Positions 11,890-18,527 of a DNA stretch of 64,000 nucleotides are shown piece by piece (positions within the stretch are counted from its first letter, which is position 1; the number at the start of each line of letters is the position of its first letter). Source of the DNA: Pseudomonas sp. S35 (lineage in GTDB: Bacteria > Pseudomonadota > Gammaproteobacteria > Pseudomonadales > Pseudomonadaceae). A program made the translations under genes and the position numbers. The DNA lies in the NCBI RefSeq assembly GCF_009866765.1, contig NZ_CP019431.1, positions 4,340,001-4,404,000 of the forward strand, given 5' to 3'. Under the pieces are notes generated by a model that did not search any database, had not been told where the DNA came from, and was given only the letters and a program-made list of their open reading frames with translations.

Positions 11890-13683
11890 ATGATGCTCAA
11901 GCGAATTTTCAAGCACTTCCATTTTTGCTGCGGCCTCGGCGGCGGCGCCAAAGGGTTCAACAAAGCCAAGCCCGTGGTGGGCAACATGCAGGCCGAGTGG
12001 CAGTGCATTGGCGGAATTGACGTTGACCCGGCCGGGTTGCGCGACTTCCAGCGCCTGTCGGGTGTGCCCGGTACCCTGATGGATCTGTTCACCCTACCGA
12101 TGTACACCGCCTTCCACGGCAAGCCGCCACCACCTGGTTGGGTTGAGGCTGGCCCTGACGATGTACGCCGCGCCGCTGGCTACGAACGCCCCGACGCAGT
12201 CTTCATCAGCAGCCCATGCAAAGGCGCCTCTGGCCTGCTGTCCGAGACAATGAGCCTGACCCCGAAGTACCAGGCCCTCAACGAACTGACGCTGCGCTGC
12301 GTGTGGCTGATGTGCGAAGCCTGGAAGGATGACCCCGTATCGTTGATCGTTTTCGAGAACGTGCCGCGCCTGGCCACCCGTGGTCGGCACCTGCTGGACC
12401 AGATCAACAAGCTGCTGAACCACTACGGTTATGCAGTTGCAGAAACCACCCACGACTGTGGCGTCATCGGCGGTCTGGCCCAGAGCCGCAAGCGCTTCTT
12501 GCTGGTGGCCAGGCACATCGAGAAGGTACCGCCCTTCCTGTACGAGCCGGAAAAGAAAACCCTCAAGTCGGTCGGTTCGATCCTGGGCCGCATGCCCATG
12601 GCCGGCGACGTGGAAGCCGCGGGCCCTATGCACAGGGTACCGGCGCTGCAATGGAAAACATGGGTGCGGCTCGCCCTGGTCGAAGCCGGCAAGGACTGGC
12701 GCTGCCTGAATGACCTGGTGATCGAGGACGGCTACCTGCGCGACCTGGTCATTGTTCCGCAATTCCGGGACGGTTTCCTGGGCGTGCACGACTGGAACGA
12801 AACCGCCGGTACCGTCGCTGCGCGCAGCGGGCCAACCAACGGCAAGTTCTCGGTAGCTGACCCACGGGCCAGAACTGGCGCCTTGCAATACCAGCAGTAC
12901 GGCGTCCGCCGCTGGGACGAAACCAGCGGCGCGGTGATCGGCGTCAAGTCGCCCGGACAAGGGACGTTCAGCGTTGCTGACCCTCGACCAGCGGGTGTTC
13001 GCCACAACAACGTGTACCGGGTGTGCAAGATGGATGGCCCGGCCGGGACGGTAACCGGTGGCCAGTCGCCAAGCGCCGGTGGCCAATGCATCGCTGATCC
13101 CCGCGACCCAGGTATTGGGCATGCCAAGTACAACGTGGCCCAATGGGATGGTGTATCACGCACGGTTATCTCAGGCAGCACCACGGGCCAGGGTGCTTTC
13201 GCTGTTCAGGATCCACGTCCAGGCATGAAGCGCGGCAAGGGCGATGCCTGGTTGACCGGTGGCCACTACGGCGTCACCAGCTGGAACGACCAGTGCGGTG
13301 CCGTTTCCGCCAGTGCTCGCCAGGACAACGGCCGGTGGTCTGTTGCAGATCCCCGCATGCCGGAAGCCAGCGAGCGCTTGACCTGCGTAATCGAAAGCCT
13401 CGACGGCACTTGGCACCGGCCATTCACCACCCTTGAGCTGGCCGCGCTGCAGAGCCTGGTTGAGCCAGAGGAATGGTTTGAGTTGGATGGCCTGAGCGAC
13501 CAGGCCTGGCGCGAGCGAATCGGGAACGCTGTTCCACCGGCAGCCGCCGAAGCAATCGCCCACGTGATGGGCACCACCCTGTTGCTGGCAGAGGCCGGCG
13601 AAACCTTCATGCTCAACAGCATGCCGATCTGGGTTCAGCCCGTAGCGGTGGCGTTGAGCGTATCCCAGCAGGTAACGCCATGA
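11890..13683 (+). CDS. DNA (cytosine-5) methyltransferase with five-fold repeat region
   Basis: The 597-residue protein has the C5-methylase motifs: motif I FCCGLGGGAKGF, motif IV SSPCKGASG (Cys110), motif VI FENVPR (Glu156), motif VIII AQSRKRFLLVA and motif X RIGNAVPPAAAEAI near the C-terminus. Between motifs VIII and X, about residues 300-490, are five degenerate ~38-residue repeats built around W-[DN]-x-x-x-G-x-V, then G-x-F-[AS]-V-x-DPR. That is where the target-recognition domain should be. The phage probably methylates its own DNA against host restriction. The ATG at 11890 has AAAGGAAA upstream. The gene overlaps the next ORF by 4 nt. Confidence 0.88.
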   Translation: MMLKRIFKHFHFCCGLGGGAKGFNKAKPVVGNMQAEWQCIGGIDVDPAGLRDFQRLSGVPGTLMDLFTLPMYTAFHGKPPPPGWVEAGPDDVRRAAGYERPDAVFISSPCKGASGLLSETMSLTPKYQALNELTLRCVWLMCEAWKDDPVSLIVFENVPRLATRGRHLLDQINKLLNHYGYAVAETTHDCGVIGGLAQSRKRFLLVARHIEKVPPFLYEPEKKTLKSVGSILGRMPMAGDVEAAGPMHRVPALQWKTWVRLALVEAGKDWRCLNDLVIEDGYLRDLVIVPQFRDGFLGVHDWNETAGTVAARSGPTNGKFSVADPRARTGALQYQQYGVRRWDETSGAVIGVKSPGQGTFSVADPRPAGVRHNNVYRVCKMDGPAGTVTGGQSPSAGGQCIADPRDPGIGHAKYNVAQWDGVSRTVISGSTTGQGAFAVQDPRPGMKRGKGDAWLTGGHYGVTSWNDQCGAVSASARQDNGRWSVADPRMPEASERLTCVIESLDGTWHRPFTTLELAALQSLVEPEEWFELDGLSDQAWRERIGNAVPPAAAEAIAHVMGTTLLLAEAGETFMLNSMPIWVQPVAVALSVSQQVTP

Positions 13684-14402
13684 TCCATTACCACGGCACA
13701 CCGATTGGCGGGAGCCGGCAGGATGCTGCTCGTTTTCTTGCCGGCCGGCATGCCCTGGTGCCATTTCCGCGACAGGACGACATGGGCATCGTTGCCGATG
13801 TCTGCCAGTCGTTCGTCTTCGACAACGGTGCATTTTCGGTCTGGAAGAAAGGCGGCAAGCTGGATGTTGATGGCTATACCGCCTGGGTCGAGCAATGGCA
13901 CCGGCACCCGGGCTTCGACTGGGCCTTGATACCTGATGTCATTGATGGGGACGAAGCGGCAAACGATGCGCTGCTTTCGGCTTGGCCCAGGGAGTTGCGC
14001 GGCGTACCGGTCTGGCACCTGCATGAATCCATTGAGCGACTGGAGCGTCTCGCCAATGAATGGCCGACGGTTGCCTTTGGCAGTTCCGGCCAATGGGCAA
14101 GCCCCGGCACAGATGCCTGGTGGAAACGAATGGGCACCGCCATGGCCGCTGTATGCGATGACCGGGGCCGGCCGGTGTGCCGCCTGCACGGCCTGCGCAT
14201 GCTCGACCCCTCGATATTCCAGCACCTGCCCTTCGCCTCTGCCGACTCCACGAATGCGGCAGTCAACGGCGGAAGCATCAGCCGCTTTGGAATGTACGCC
14301 CCGCCAACCGCCGGCCAGCGCGCCAACGTGATCGCCGACCGGATTGAAGCCAACAACAGCAGCGCCGTGTGGCTGCCACCTCAACTTGAACTGATCGTCT
14401 GA
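13680..14402 (+). CDS. Putative TGT/DpdA-like TIM-barrel protein
   Basis: The 240-residue protein has FDNGAFSVWKKGG, FDWALIPDVIDGDEAANDAL, VPVWHLHESIERLERLA, VAFGSSGQWA and CRLHGLRMLDPSIF followed by FASADSTNAA. This order (an Asp-rich early strand, a His-containing strand, a G-S/G strand, then HGLRML and a final ADST) resembles the diverged tRNA-guanine transglycosylase-like barrels that include DpdA, which inserts 7-deazaguanines into DNA. The similarity is remembered, not computed, so treat it as tentative. It overlaps the C5-methylase stop by 4 nt, which supports a nucleic-acid-modification role. No deazaguanine synthesis genes are seen nearby. Confidence 0.5.
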   Translation: MIHYHGTPIGGSRQDAARFLAGRHALVPFPRQDDMGIVADVCQSFVFDNGAFSVWKKGGKLDVDGYTAWVEQWHRHPGFDWALIPDVIDGDEAANDALLSAWPRELRGVPVWHLHESIERLERLANEWPTVAFGSSGQWASPGTDAWWKRMGTAMAAVCDDRGRPVCRLHGLRMLDPSIFQHLPFASADSTNAAVNGGSISRFGMYAPPTAGQRANVIADRIEANNSSAVWLPPQLELIV

Positions 14403-14412
14403 GGCATCCCCC

Positions 14413-14724
14413 ATGAACTCACTTGCACAGCAGGCGCTTGACCGCGCCCGCCAGGCGCCCGCGCGCGCCTCCAAACTTCTCGCGCCAGTCCTAGCCAACG
14501 AGCCACTGCCCGAACTGGTCATCACCGGCCCCATCAACCGCGTCATGGAACTGGAGGGCAAGCAGTTCGCAGTTGGCTTCGTCCAGGCGCTGGGGCCATC
14601 CATCCGGCGCGAGCCCGTGCGGACCAAGGCCATTGCCGACCTGACCCGGTACGCCGCGCAGCAACCCGCCAGCGTGGCCAGCGGCGTAAAGATCGTTATC
14701 GACTTGTTGAAGGGGGCGTCATGA
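14413..14724 (+). CDS. Phage protein of unknown function, 103 aa
   Basis: The protein (MNSLAQQALDRARQAPARAS, then INRVMELEGKQFAVGFVQAL) is helical and basic at the N-terminus. It has a GAGG ribosome site and overlaps the ASCH gene by 4 nt (ATGA). No family is recognised. Confidence 0.65.
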   Translation: MNSLAQQALDRARQAPARASKLLAPVLANEPLPELVITGPINRVMELEGKQFAVGFVQALGPSIRREPVRTKAIADLTRYAAQQPASVASGVKIVIDLLKGAS

Positions 14725-15341
14725 AAGAGCGTCCGATTCTATTCAAAGGCCCACTGGTGCGGGCGATCCTGGCCGGGCAGAAGACAGTCACGCGGCGGGT
14801 AGTAAAACCGCAGTTCCAGACGGCCCCGGTTGATGTAGTTGATGGCGTGCCAAGCTGGGACTCTCCGACCAACTACGCTGGCGAAGTCCAGATGAACACG
14901 CAGCACGGGGAACCGTGCCCCTACGGCAAGCCTGGCGACCGGCTTTGGGTGCGCGAGACCTGGGCCCGTGTCGGAAATTGCGATCCCGGCTATCTGACGT
15001 TCGCCGCAACCTATCCCGGATGCCTGACGCCGGAACTGGAAAACATCCCGGCCGCCAACGAAATCCGCTGGAAACCCAGCATCCATATGTTCCGCCGTGA
15101 CAGCCGCATCCTGCTGGAGATCACCGACGTGCGCGTTGAGCGATTGCAGGACATCAGCCGCGCCGGTATCCGGGCAGAAGGCCTGCAATGTCCGCCAGAG
15201 CTGGCAAGCGATGACGTTTCACCGAATTACCGAGACTGGTACCCGGCGGCCTGGCGGGAGTTGTGGGAGTCCACTGGCGGCGACTGGGAAGCCAACCCGT
15301 GGGTCTGGGTGGTCGAGTTCAAGCGGGTTACGCCGCCATGA
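14721..15341 (+). CDS. ASCH/PUA-like domain phage protein
   Basis: The 206-residue protein begins MKERPILFKGPLVRAILAGQ and continues KTVTRRVVKPQ, then GDRLWVRETWARVG and a C-terminal LLEITDVRVERLQDISRAG. This is the usual layout of phage ASCH-domain proteins, an RNA- or modified-base-binding PUA-like fold. Function in phages is not settled. It sits between a probable base-modification gene and a methyltransferase, so recognition of modified bases is a reasonable but unproven guess. Confidence 0.8.
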   Translation: MKERPILFKGPLVRAILAGQKTVTRRVVKPQFQTAPVDVVDGVPSWDSPTNYAGEVQMNTQHGEPCPYGKPGDRLWVRETWARVGNCDPGYLTFAATYPGCLTPELENIPAANEIRWKPSIHMFRRDSRILLEITDVRVERLQDISRAGIRAEGLQCPPELASDDVSPNYRDWYPAAWRELWESTGGDWEANPWVWVVEFKRVTPP

Positions 15342-15805
15342 TCCTTGACCCCTGCTGCGGCTCCCGGATGTTCTGGTTTGACAAGGACAGCCAGCACGCG
15401 CTGTTCGGAGACATCCGCGATGAGCAACACGTCCTCTGTGATGGTCGGGTTCTGAATGTTGAACCCAACGTAATCATGGACTTTCGGCAACTGCCCTTCC
15501 CCGACAACACGTTCAACATGGTGGTGTTTGATCCGCCACATCTTACCCGCGCCGGCCGTGACAGCTGGATGCGCCTGAAATACGGAATGCTCACCGCCGA
15601 CTGGCAAGAAGATATTCGCCAGGGCTTCGCCGAGTGCTTCCGGGTTTTGAAGCCCGGCCAGTTCCTGGTGTTCAAGTGGAACGAAACCCAGGTGCGCGTC
15701 AGCCAAATACTGGCCCTCACCAATGAAATCCCGCTGTTCGGGCACAAGTCCGGCAAGCGGGAGAAAACCCACTGGATCATGTTCATGAAGCGGGGTGCGC
15801 CATGA
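15338..15805 (+). CDS. SAM-dependent methyltransferase with DPPH motif
   Basis: The 155-residue protein starts MILDPCCGSRMFWFDK (motif I) and has LPFPDNTFNMVVFDPPHLTR; DPPH is a variant of the DPPY of N6-adenine and N4-cytosine amino-methylases. Further on are CFRVLKPGQFLVFKWNE and PLFGHKSGKREKTHWIMFMK. There is no obvious target-recognition domain. It overlaps both neighbours by 4 nt. It may methylate DNA or modify a base made by the neighbouring enzymes. Confidence 0.82.
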   Translation: MILDPCCGSRMFWFDKDSQHALFGDIRDEQHVLCDGRVLNVEPNVIMDFRQLPFPDNTFNMVVFDPPHLTRAGRDSWMRLKYGMLTADWQEDIRQGFAECFRVLKPGQFLVFKWNETQVRVSQILALTNEIPLFGHKSGKREKTHWIMFMKRGAP

Positions 15806-15951
15806 CCAGCACCGGCAAGCTGTCCTCCGGGGTGCATGAGTTCCTGGCCAAGTGCGACAAGTGCAACAGGCCCCGCAACAGCGGGAACCACGACAAATGC
15901 AGCAAGGCCCGGCAAGCGGAAAAGATGAGAGTTAAATGGGAGGATCCGTAA
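15802..15951 (+). CDS. Small Cys-rich phage protein, 49 aa
   Basis: The short protein (MTSTGKLSSGVHEFLAKCDK, then CNRPRNSGNHDKCSKARQ) has CDKC and HDKC, a possible zinc knuckle, in a basic context. It is coupled to the methyltransferase by an ATGA overlap. Its 3' end overlaps the tail of the convergent DUF3800 gene by 20 nt. Confidence 0.65.
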   Translation: MTSTGKLSSGVHEFLAKCDKCNRPRNSGNHDKCSKARQAEKMRVKWEDP

Positions 15952-16738
15952 CATATTCAGAACCAACCCGCCACTCAATCAAGTCGTATAACTGATTGAA
16001 ACGCTTCTGCGACGAGTCCGCATGGATCGCGTGACAACAAATATAGGCAAGAACATCTGCAACATCCAGAAGTTGCGGATAATCCCCACCACCAATTATA
16101 GGCTCAACACTATTAAAAACGTCAGAACCACCAAAATCCCTTATGAACCCTGATGCTAAAAAATGTGCCTGACTACGAGTTTCCCCTATAAACTTTATGA
16201 CTGTCGGATCGGGCGAGATAAAGATTTGGCAATCTGCTGGCGAAGGACCGTGACGAGGATCATTTCCGTTCATGAAACACCCAAGAGCCAGATGGCCGAG
16301 GATCCCCTTCGGATCAAGCCTTGCGGGCATGGCTATATCCGGCTCTCCTTTGATAGATTGGAAGACAATCTTATCTTCCGGAAACATGCCGTCTAATTTA
16401 CTCATAAACGCATACGTGAAACGTACAAGTCCTTGATAGCGATTTATAACCGTTATGACATTAACAAGAATCGAGTTGATATCAGTTTCAGTCAAATGAC
16501 TGAGGCCCTTCTTTTCTCGGAGTTGCCCACTCATGAGCTCCCTACAGTGTATTCCCACACCGACAGGAAACTTAAATCTCCTTTTAATATCCTCAACTTC
16601 ACGAACAATCGACTTAAGCTTTGTGCGCTTAAAGATTAAAAAGGCATAGACCAGTGCACCGTTGAATTGGCTGTCATCGCCATAAGCGATGTACTTAGAG
16701 TCGTCGTTTGAACCAACCACCGCCACGTCGCTCACCAT
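15932..16738 (-). CDS. DUF3800-like protein, AT-rich prophage cargo gene
   Basis: The 268-residue protein resembles DUF3800, an RNase H-like fold family of unknown role often found beside mobile elements. The N-terminus has YIAYGDDSQFNG in place of the usual Y-x-D-E-S/G, then HCRELMSG and a C-terminal LLDVADVLAYICCHAIHAD typical of the family. The DNA is clearly richer in A/T than its neighbours and the gene is on the opposite strand, so it looks like a recently acquired moron near the integration end. A defence role is possible but unproven. The ATG at 16738 has AAGGGAT upstream. Confidence 0.7.
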   Translation of the reverse strand: MVSDVAVVGSNDDSKYIAYGDDSQFNGALVYAFLIFKRTKLKSIVREVEDIKRRFKFPVGVGIHCRELMSGQLREKKGLSHLTETDINSILVNVITVINRYQGLVRFTYAFMSKLDGMFPEDKIVFQSIKGEPDIAMPARLDPKGILGHLALGCFMNGNDPRHGPSPADCQIFISPDPTVIKFIGETRSQAHFLASGFIRDFGGSDVFNSVEPIIGGGDYPQLLDVADVLAYICCHAIHADSSQKRFNQLYDLIEWRVGSEYVTDPPI

Positions 16739-16822: not shown

Positions 16823-17224
16823 ATGTCCAGAACAAACGCGGCACAGGCCGCAGCACCAGCGCCGCGCTTCATCCGGGCGTCGGCTGCACCCGCCTACCTC
16901 GGCATGTGCCGGGAAGAATTCAAGAACACCGTCCGCCCCCACGTCCGCGAATTCCCCATTGGAAAACAGGGCGTTGCCTTCGACCGTCTTGAGCTCGACC
17001 AGTGGGCAGACGCCTACATCGAGCGCATGGCAATTGAAAAGCAGACCGATCAGGACAACAATCCGCCCCGCAGTGGGCGCCAAGGAGCAAAACAATGGCG
17101 CGAAAAACAATGTCGGGCCTCTACCAGAGGAACGGGATTTGGCACATCGACAAAGTCGTCAGAGGTAGCCGACTTCAAGAAAGCACTGGAGCAAGCGAGA
17201 GGGAAGAAGCCGAGCAGTACTTGA
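16823..17224 (+). CDS. Putative excisionase / AlpA-type DNA-binding protein
   Basis: The 133-residue protein has a winged-helix-like core (FIRASAAPAYLGMCREEFKN, then VREFPIGKQGVAFDRLELDQ and WADAYIERM), the pattern of MerR/AlpA-like excisionases that read 'start from the correct cell, then specify a helix'. It is directly upstream of int. Its last 43 codons overlap the integrase start region in another frame. The C-terminal tail is low-complexity and may not be conserved. The ATG at 16823 has a GAGG ribosome site. Confidence 0.7.
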   Translation: MSRTNAAQAAAPAPRFIRASAAPAYLGMCREEFKNTVRPHVREFPIGKQGVAFDRLELDQWADAYIERMAIEKQTDQDNNPPRSGRQGAKQWREKQCRASTRGTGFGTSTKSSEVADFKKALEQARGKKPSST

Positions 17225-18291
17225 TTCATCGGCTGGAAAAGCTGCGGCAGGAAAAGATTTACGGCGTGCGCCAGGTGCGAACCTGGCGCGAGGCTGCCAC
17301 CCGGTTCCTGGTCGAGTTCAAAGACCAGGCATCAATCGGCCTTTCCGCTTCCCACATCGAACAACTCGACCCATACATCGGCGATCTGCCGATAACGCAC
17401 ATCGATGATGGGAGCCTGGCTACGTTCATTCGTGACCGGCAGCGGCCGAGCAAGACCGACAAAGGAAAGGTCAAGCCAGGCGTATCGAACAGGACGGTCA
17501 ATATCGCCCTACAGCGAGTGGTCAGGATCTTGAACCTGTGTCACCGCAAGTGGCGAGATGCTGAAAAGCGGCCGTGGCTGGAGAGCGTGCCGATGATATC
17601 GATGCTTGAGGAAAAGAAGTCGAGCCGCAAACCCTACCCGATGTCCTGGGAAGAGCAGGCCCTGTTATTCCCTGAGCTGCCCGACCACCTGTTGAGGATG
17701 GCCCTCTATAAGGTGAACACGGGTTGCCGGGAGCAGGAAGTGTGCAAGTTGCGGTGGGATTGGGAAATACGGGTGCCGGACCTGAACACCAGCGTGTTTC
17801 TGATACCTGCCGGATTCGGCGGGCGGAGTGAAAAAGCAGGGGTGAAGAACGGCGATGAACGCCTGGTGATCTTGAACAACGTGGCGATGTCCATCATCGA
17901 TGGCCAGCGCGGTCTACACCAAGGCCTGGTGTTCCCGTATGGGCAACCAGATCAGTTCGGGCCAACGGCGATGCATCGAATGAACGACTCGGCCTGGAAG
18001 AAAGCCAGGGTGCGCGCAGCGGACAAATGGGAGAAGGCCCACCAATCGCCGGCACACCCCGGATTCAGGTCGATCAGGATTCACGACTTGAAGCACACCT
18101 TTGGCAGAAGGCTACGTGCGGCGAGCGTGACAGAGGAAGATCGGAAAGCGTTGTTGGGGCATAAGAACGGCAGCATTACGAGCCACTATTCTACCCCGGA
18201 GTTGCAGCACTTGATTGAGGCTGCGAACAAAGTGTCGGCTACTGACTCTCGCGGGCCAGCGCTGACCATCTTGAGGAGGAAATTGGGATGA
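17095..18291 (+). CDS. int: Tyrosine integrase
   Basis: The 398-residue protein has an N-terminal arm-type domain, a core-binding domain (about 60-160) and a catalytic domain. The catalytic residues are Arg212 (NTGCREQEVCKLRW), His330 (HDLKHTFGRRLR), His356 (LLGHKNGS) and Tyr365 (HYSTPEL). The second arginine of the usual HxLR box is Lys333. The ATG at 17095 has AAGGAG 8 nt upstream. It lies next to tRNA-Pro(GGG) and presumably integrates into its 3' end. Confidence 0.92.
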   Translation: MARKTMSGLYQRNGIWHIDKVVRGSRLQESTGASEREEAEQYLIHRLEKLRQEKIYGVRQVRTWREAATRFLVEFKDQASIGLSASHIEQLDPYIGDLPITHIDDGSLATFIRDRQRPSKTDKGKVKPGVSNRTVNIALQRVVRILNLCHRKWRDAEKRPWLESVPMISMLEEKKSSRKPYPMSWEEQALLFPELPDHLLRMALYKVNTGCREQEVCKLRWDWEIRVPDLNTSVFLIPAGFGGRSEKAGVKNGDERLVILNNVAMSIIDGQRGLHQGLVFPYGQPDQFGPTAMHRMNDSAWKKARVRAADKWEKAHQSPAHPGFRSIRIHDLKHTFGRRLRAASVTEEDRKALLGHKNGSITSHYSTPELQHLIEAANKVSATDSRGPALTILRRKLG

Positions 18292-18316
18292 TCCCCCGCA
18301 AAAGTCCCTACGCGTA

Positions 18317-18345
18317 AAAAAGCCGAACTGGCTAGAGTTCGGCTA
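18317..18345 (-). terminator. Rho-independent terminator downstream of tRNA-Pro
   Basis: AGCCGAACT (18322-18330) pairs perfectly with AGTTCGGCT (18337-18345); on the minus strand a T-run follows at 18317-18322. It lies 15 nt beyond the tRNA 3' end. Because it is on the prophage side of the tRNA it may belong to the prophage end (attL/attR junction). Confidence 0.88.
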
Positions 18346-18360
18346 AGTCACTGAAAAATA

Positions 18361-18437
18361 TGGTCGGGACGGAGTGATTCGAACACTCGACCCCTAGCAC
18401 CCCATGCTAGTGCGCTACCGGACTGCGCTACGCCCCG
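18361..18437 (-). tRNA. tRNA-Pro (anticodon GGG)
   Basis: The 77-nt cloverleaf has acceptor CGGGGCG/CGTCCCG, a D-arm with GTAGCGC, an anticodon stem CTAGC/GCTAG with loop ATGGGGT (anticodon GGG), T-loop TTCGAAT and an encoded CCA. Its 3' end faces the integrase gene, the usual arrangement when a prophage uses a tRNA 3' end as att site. Confidence 0.97.
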
Positions 18438-18527
18438 ACTAGGCGTGTTACTGGGTTCGCTTCGTAACGAAGCGATCAGGAATATACCGCAAGCTTTTGA
18501 AATGTGGAAGTATTTTAAAAGCCTGTA

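Follow-up and report, generated by a model that had tools for sequence, protein, structure and literature searches.

A six-gene accessory island in a Pseudomonas prophage encodes a cassette-built C5-methylase and a predicted DpdA base-exchange enzyme

The window analysed here, a 64,000-nt stretch of Pseudomonas sp. S35 (contig NZ_CP019431.1, positions 4,340,001 to 4,404,000), holds at 11890–15951 a run of six open reading frames, all on the + strand, at the end of a prophage that carries its integrase (positions are those of the window unless the genome is named). A PHROGs scan of the window proteins also found a CI-like repressor, RecT-like and RecE-like proteins and an integrase. In order, the six genes encode a C5-cytosine DNA methyltransferase, a DpdA of 240 amino acids (aa), a 103-aa protein, a 206-aa protein of PHROG 874, a 155-aa methyltransferase with a DPPH motif and a 49-aa micro-protein. 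At four of the five junctions neighbouring genes share a 4-nt ATGA overlap, which implies co-translation; the exception is a 10-nt gap between the DpdA and 103-aa genes. An earlier note, made from the DNA letters alone, had described this run as a possible novel modification cluster. The overlapping run in the prophage is real, and four of the gene calls (C5-methylase, protein without known function, DPPH methyltransferase and Cys-rich micro-protein) are borne out by Pfam, PHROG and PADLOC matches, by motifs and by the three Cys of the micro-protein. All six proteins match PHROGs that already exist, and the setting, a phage accessory island, is ordinary.

The 240-aa protein (13680–14402, +) is a predicted TGT-fold base-exchange enzyme, and its assignment as a singleton DpdA is well supported. 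It matches PHROG 887, labelled ‘queuine tRNA-ribosyltransferase’ (E 7e-73), the family that also holds the experimentally studied DpdAs of Salmonella phage 7-11 (38% identity over 181 aa, E 1e-32) and Enterobacteria phage 9g (24% over 161 aa, E 1e-8); no Pfam family scored above its cut-off. Its His170 aligns with 9g His196, a histidine reported by Hutinet et al. 2019 to be missing from DpdA2 (PMC6884629). Six residues (D48, D86, H113, S135, H170 and D189) are invariant in all 42 rows of an alignment of the window protein with the proteins of 41 of 80 DpdA loci, and D48 and D189 are invariant in a 12-row alignment that contains the 9g DpdA. The structure model built from the same 41 loci (pLDDT 90.9) retrieved by VIA-align, among the 50 matches listed, 49 TGTs and the TGT-family protein Cap10. 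By motif order, we take D48 and D189 to be equivalent to the catalytic Asp pair of TGT, D102 and D280. What had been a tentative TGT/DpdA-like call is thus firmer: mass spectrometry has been applied to two of the phage DpdAs to which the protein is homologous, and its model matches the TGT fold.

One of the closest known systems is group 3 of Hutinet et al. 2019, the phages with a singleton DpdA, of which 7-11 is an example. Like 7-11, the prophage carries DpdA without preQ0 genes, as far as these were searched for, in a host with queuosine-pathway genes. The prophage differs from 7-11 in being temperate and in placing its DpdA gene near an integrase and beside DNA methylases, and the window DpdA has at its N-terminus the residues MIHYHG, which are missing from the 7-11 protein as annotated. 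The dG+ pathway of 9g shares a homologous DpdA but includes GTP cyclohydrolase, QueD-, QueE- and QueC-type genes, whereas the prophage gave no QueC, QueD, QueE or QueF match. Two observations on DpdA neighbourhoods stand apart from these comparisons. An 81-aa protein of PHROG 37496, whose function is not known, is encoded at 19 loci (e.g. L011:4759–5004), in 18 of them directly upstream of DpdA and mostly overlapping its start by 4 nt; it is a possible DpdA partner. Pseudomonas phage Epa33 (L001:4902–8830) carries in a row a PHROG 56 DNA methyltransferase, the 81-aa PHROG 37496 protein, a DpdA 79% identical to that of the window and a 696-aa C5-methylase.

The first gene of the run (11890–13683, +) encodes a 597-aa C5-cytosine DNA methyltransferase, which matches PF00145 (E 1.2e-12), PHROG 116 (E 9e-54) and PHROG 32684. 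It contains motifs I, IV (PC), VI (ENV), VIII (QxRxR) and X (GN), found as FHFCCGLGG at aa 10, SSPCKG at 107, FENV at 155, QSRKR at 198 and RIGNAV at 543. Motifs IV, VI, VIII and X are kept in 201 to 202 of the 202 family members, a set that includes the prophage's own copies and near-identical relatives. Motif IV, usually PCQ in C5-methylases, is PCK in 201 of the 202, the window protein included. Methylases of 98% identity come from sources that include Pseudomonas veronii, and neither sequence nor profile search matched a solved structure. The PCK motif raised a CmoX-type carboxymethyltransferase as a candidate, which was ruled out by the SSPC and the intact GNAV motif X of the window protein; we assume that N374 of M.MpeI lies in this motif. 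CmoX is defined by an SPPC motif and an active-site Arg, R350, which its authors liken to M.MpeI N374K (PMC12783734).

The build of this methylase is unusual and modular. Between QSRKR (aa 198–202, motif VIII) and RIGNAV (543–548, motif X), five tandem repeats fill aa 287–489, within the target-recognition region: module A (aa 287–326; 12748–12867, +), B (327–366; 12868–12987, +), F (367–405; 12988–13104, +), D (406–443; 13105–13218, +) and C (444–489; 13219–13356, +). Each is 38–46 aa long, is built on a (W/M)(D/N) ... (T/A)V core and ends in DPR, and in nine of the ten pairwise module alignments the observed score was reached by none of 1000 shuffles. Relatives vary in length by whole modules (558, 597 and 639 aa). 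After removal from the 202 of 19 sequences without parsing anchors, A is first and B second in all 183 parsed relatives; three of these parsed incompletely (ABF twice, AB once). In the 180 parsed cleanly, C is last, and the space between B and C holds from one to three modules drawn from D, E, F, G, H and I; F and D of the window protein are exchangeable cassettes. Fifteen arrangements occur among the 180, with E-F in some and F-E in others.

Multispecific C5-methylases of Bacillus phages include the SPR, phi3T and H2 types. Such Bacillus phage methylases carry several recognition domains in one chain (PMC8936443, PMC12707154), and the window methylase resembles them, in a likeness drawn without sequence comparison, by its single catalytic core and several tandem modules between conserved motifs. 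Unlike them, it belongs to a Pseudomonas phage family (PHROG 116/32684) with a PCK motif IV, in which a fixed A-B...C frame encloses one to three exchangeable cassettes. With an array of ~40-aa modules as its recognition region, the enzyme may methylate cytosines in several short target sequences. The family is also a natural collection of ~40-aa modules whose rearrangements are known, from which methylomes could yield module-to-sequence rules.

For the DpdA, the earlier note had assumed use of a host precursor, and the genome agrees with this. The host genome, one 6.61-Mb contig, encodes QueD, QueE adjoining QueC (5193175–5194438), a second QueC apart from that pair, QueF, Tgt and YhhQ, all outside the prophage. 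A complete phage preQ0/G+ pathway was not found: all QueC, QueD, QueE, QueF and Tgt matches lie outside genome positions 4316486–4358408, the span used for the prophage (FolE and amidotransferases were not searched for). The host thus carries every preQ0 gene looked for, FolE not being among them, and the phage none of these. The 9g DpdA alone in E. coli led to a low level of preQ0 in DNA, taken from host precursor (PMC6884629). In the survey of 2019, no group was larger than that of phages with only DpdA, whose modification status it called difficult to predict (PMC6884629). Separately, the second host QueC, the stronger of the two at 276 bits, adjoins a YhhQ-type transporter gene (host genome C1:5508733–5510072).

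A transporter of this type also accompanies sister DpdAs. At some viral DpdA loci, a small gene overlapping the end of dpdA belongs to PHROG 4899, labelled ‘unknown function’. Its products resemble the YhhQ/VUT preQ0 transporter (PF02592): all eight phage or prophage VUTs tested (seven plus that of L004) pass the Pfam Vut_1 cut-off. They differ from it in being shorter (~150–215 aa), in lying mostly beside TGT-like genes and in falling under the cut-off of TIGR00697 (‘queuosine precursor transporter’), which the seven proteins compared with it matched only below that score. Three transporter-first scans gave 29, 45 and 18 loci, and with queries picked for lying beside DpdAs, a selection that favours linkage, a PHROG 887-type DpdA was found within a few kb in 81 of these 92 VUT loci (3-kb flanks were available for 90), on the same strand in 81 of 81. 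Among 80 control methylase loci, DpdA was present in 4 and the transporter in none. The first scan found DpdA in all 29 loci, with aligned ends overlapping or at most 33 nt apart in 28, and six loci from the second scan have DpdA downstream of the transporter instead; a scan with the L005 protein found no relatives. After grouping at 95% nucleotide identity, the linkage holds in 15 of 15 clusters of the first scan, and in 36 of 43 in the other count. This linkage supports base salvage.

Eleven VUT loci have no PHROG 887-type DpdA. In two, a PHROG 1279 ‘queuine tRNA-ribosyltransferase’ replaces it; four have PHROG 15826, one a Mom-like gene, one (L276) no TGT-like gene that could be seen, and three have less than 340 nt of upstream sequence. 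The PHROG 15826 proteins lie upstream of the VUT (L236:2381–2995, L237:2355–2990, L247:2354–2953 and L250:1937–2566) and contain TGT/DpdA-like DNG(G/C)(Y/F) and PD(I/V)VG motifs, which make them a candidate new TGT-like family. The Mom-like DNA modification protein (PHROG 1384, L273:56–874) adjoins a partial phage VUT match, without DpdA. No transporter was found beside the window's DpdA, and none was seen in its island. We also considered that VUT carriage by phages might be confined to hosts that cannot make preQ0; this is contradicted by QueC scoring over its cut-off in four of four genomes bearing the pair (one a metagenome-assembled genome). YhhQ homologues in phages were noted by Hutinet et al. 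as showing no correlation with a group (PMC6884629). Within the titles and abstract openings listed by searches of open-licence literature, we found no paper on a DpdA–VUT operon or on a cassette array in Pseudomonas phage C5-methylases. The link to a YhhQ-like transporter makes deazapurine salvage by DpdA-only phages testable, and gives PHROG 4899 a likely role.

Taken together, we consider it somewhat probable that the stretch is the integrase-side, anti-restriction accessory island of a temperate Pseudomonas phage, carrying stacked and independent DNA modifications, with a DpdA that uses host precursor. The genes would be co-translated, probably early in lytic growth, and the methylase, the DpdA and the DPPH enzyme would each modify phage DNA independently of the others. 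The methylase would mark cytosines in several short sequences through its module array, the DpdA would swap guanines for preQ0 from the host's queuosine pathway, or for a base that the host derives from preQ0, and the DPPH enzyme would add an amino-methyl mark. We infer both that DNA is the substrate and that the marks protect it. The lesson would be that unrelated DNA disguises can be stacked in one small, changeable phage island.

Several points weigh against this reading. In the DpdA, D86 is not kept in the 9g protein. Foldseek alone on the model ranked generic TIM barrels first, with no match at E <= 0.001; profile alignment to 24 TGTs (hhalign) was not significant (E 0.16, 38 columns), and a profile search for solved relatives gave none that was credible (best E 0.63, to integrases). 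In the methylase, a structure model from 22 close relatives reached a pLDDT of 40.7 and was not used, 9 of 1000 shuffles scored as high as the F-C pair, and the fit of the modules, as putative recognition units, to the multispecific model is based on position, unit size and shuffling. QueC speaks in favour of the reading, exceeding its cut-off in 41 of 43 genomes with such DpdAs (from 43 of the 79 genome loci) and in 58 of 75 genomes at class level (p 0.010 by Fisher's test), but this comparison is unmatched for taxon or genome size and includes the window's own genome among the 75. By profile search, a VUT is carried at only 13 of the 87 DpdA loci from phages and viral sequences and at 4 of the 79 from genomes; its carriage does not track host need, since all four VUT-bearing genomes also have QueC. 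Among phages with singleton DpdAs, dADG accounts for ~0.02% of G in 7-11 and for none in Orion, and functional divergence of these DpdAs was left open by Hutinet et al. (PMC6884629). Given the host genes and the 9g result, supply of the base is plausible.

A broader and doubtful extension is that temperate phages practise salvage-based hypermodification, with a minimal DpdA, an optional deazapurine transporter (PHROG 4899) and no biosynthesis genes, a cassette-recoded C5-methylase as second layer and PHROG 15826 as a further TGT-like family. As the four pair-bearing genomes all encode QueC, the transporter may import a different 7-deazapurine, giving a base not yet described in DNA.

The first rival places the substrate elsewhere: the 240-aa enzyme would act on tRNA, altering queuosine modification during infection in favour of phage translation. 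The TGT fold of the model, the PHROG 887 label and the presence in the host of the queuosine genes looked for agree with this. Against it, the protein matches no NCBIfam model, that for Tgt included, at E <= 0.1, and its only Cys (42, 159 and 167) leave it without the Zn-binding Cys cluster seen in the host Tgt. The 9g DpdA, moreover, failed to complement a tgt mutant and inserted preQ0 in DNA (PMC6884629). We therefore regard action on tRNA as improbable and prefer DNA as the substrate.

A second rival takes the six genes as one concerted pathway, for example one in which the same sites are both methylated and base-exchanged and an ASCH protein serves as reader; this is close to what the earlier note had proposed. 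The ATGA overlaps and their implied co-translation speak for it. So do two loci that count against a loose collection of genes, and to that extent against the reading we favour: L143, with five of the six in the same order and no DPPH gene (methylase, DpdA, 103-aa, ASCH, Cys-rich), and L100, with five of the six and no DpdA. Further in its favour, four genes stand in a row in Epa33, those for DpdA and for a C5-methylase from another subfamily, a hypothetical one and one annotated as ASCH, and in BTP1 an ASCH-annotated gene lies two genes after DpdA (no Pfam ASCH there at E <= 0.01). Against it, all six genes occur together in 1 of 80 DpdA loci (L010) and 1 of 80 methylase loci (L094), both being the prophage's own contig; these counts are minima, as the tblastn search was run at 1e-4 and many loci end at contig edges. 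Some partial recurrence speaks the other way: of the 80 methylase loci, again as minima, 22 hold the Cys-rich gene, 17 the 103-aa gene, 10 the ASCH-like gene, 4 a DpdA (one of them the prophage itself) and 3 the DPPH gene. The 103-aa gene, present in 17 of 80 methylase loci as against 1 of 80 DpdA loci, travels with the methylase rather than with DpdA. DpdA lies between the methylase and the 103-aa gene here and in L143, whereas in L095 and L096, whose methylases are 98% identical, the corresponding ~1.0 and 0.8 kb contain no DpdA. The six genes are thus probably not one system, a single concerted pathway is quite unlikely, and the claim of one novel cluster is not supported; the island resembles a loose assembly of mobile genes more than a single new pathway.

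It is equally unlikely, in our view, that in this lineage the DpdA has decayed or is carried along inactive, as a passenger. The very low or absent modification in the tested singleton phages (PMC6884629) would suit a passenger, as would two of the 80 viral DpdA loci (L043 and L057) that look frame-shifted, perhaps through sequencing error. Against this stand the invariance of six active-site positions in 42 of 42 rows, the intact frame with its ATGA overlap and the recurrent pairing of sister DpdAs with transporters. Very unlikely is a role like that of Cap10 in type IV CBASS, adding or removing deazaguanine on protein, possibly as counter-defence: Cap10 shares the TGT fold and uses deazapurine but acts on protein, the 16 window proteins scanned carry no CD-NTase or CBASS label (six by Pfam, PHROGs, NCBIfam and PADLOC, ten by PHROGs only), and the sequence homology of the window DpdA is to the DNA-acting 9g DpdA, the Cap10 sequence itself not having been compared.

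The remaining island genes, which complete the stack in the reading we favour, are all on the + strand. The 155-aa DPPH-motif methyltransferase (15338–15805) matches PHROG 954 ‘DNA methyltransferase’ (E 4e-78) and PADLOC MTase_II/oMTase. The 206-aa protein (14721–15341) belongs to PHROG 874 (E 1.6e-69), whose function is not known. It had been called an ASCH protein and a PUA-like reader; a weak ASCH similarity stands (E 0.026), at 15.6 bits against a Pfam cut-off of 21.2, which makes the protein a tentative candidate for such a reader. Neither of these two proteins had a PDB match at E <= 0.1. The 103-aa protein (14413–14724; PHROG 34757, E 7e-6) and the 49-aa micro-protein with its three Cys (15802–15951; PHROG 17140, E 7e-10) match only PHROGs without known function.

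Between the island and the integrase, a gene on the opposite strand (15932–16738, −) encodes a 268-aa protein with no match in PHROG (E <= 0.001) or Pfam (E <= 0.01). The integrase itself lies at 17095–18291 (+; PHROG 1, E 2e-39). The region 18250–18520 showed no repeats within it, and the prophage insertion site is a tRNA-Pro gene at 18361–18437. It overlaps a 51-bp right attachment core (18358–18408) that is found twice, as identical copies at genome positions 4316486 and 4358358.

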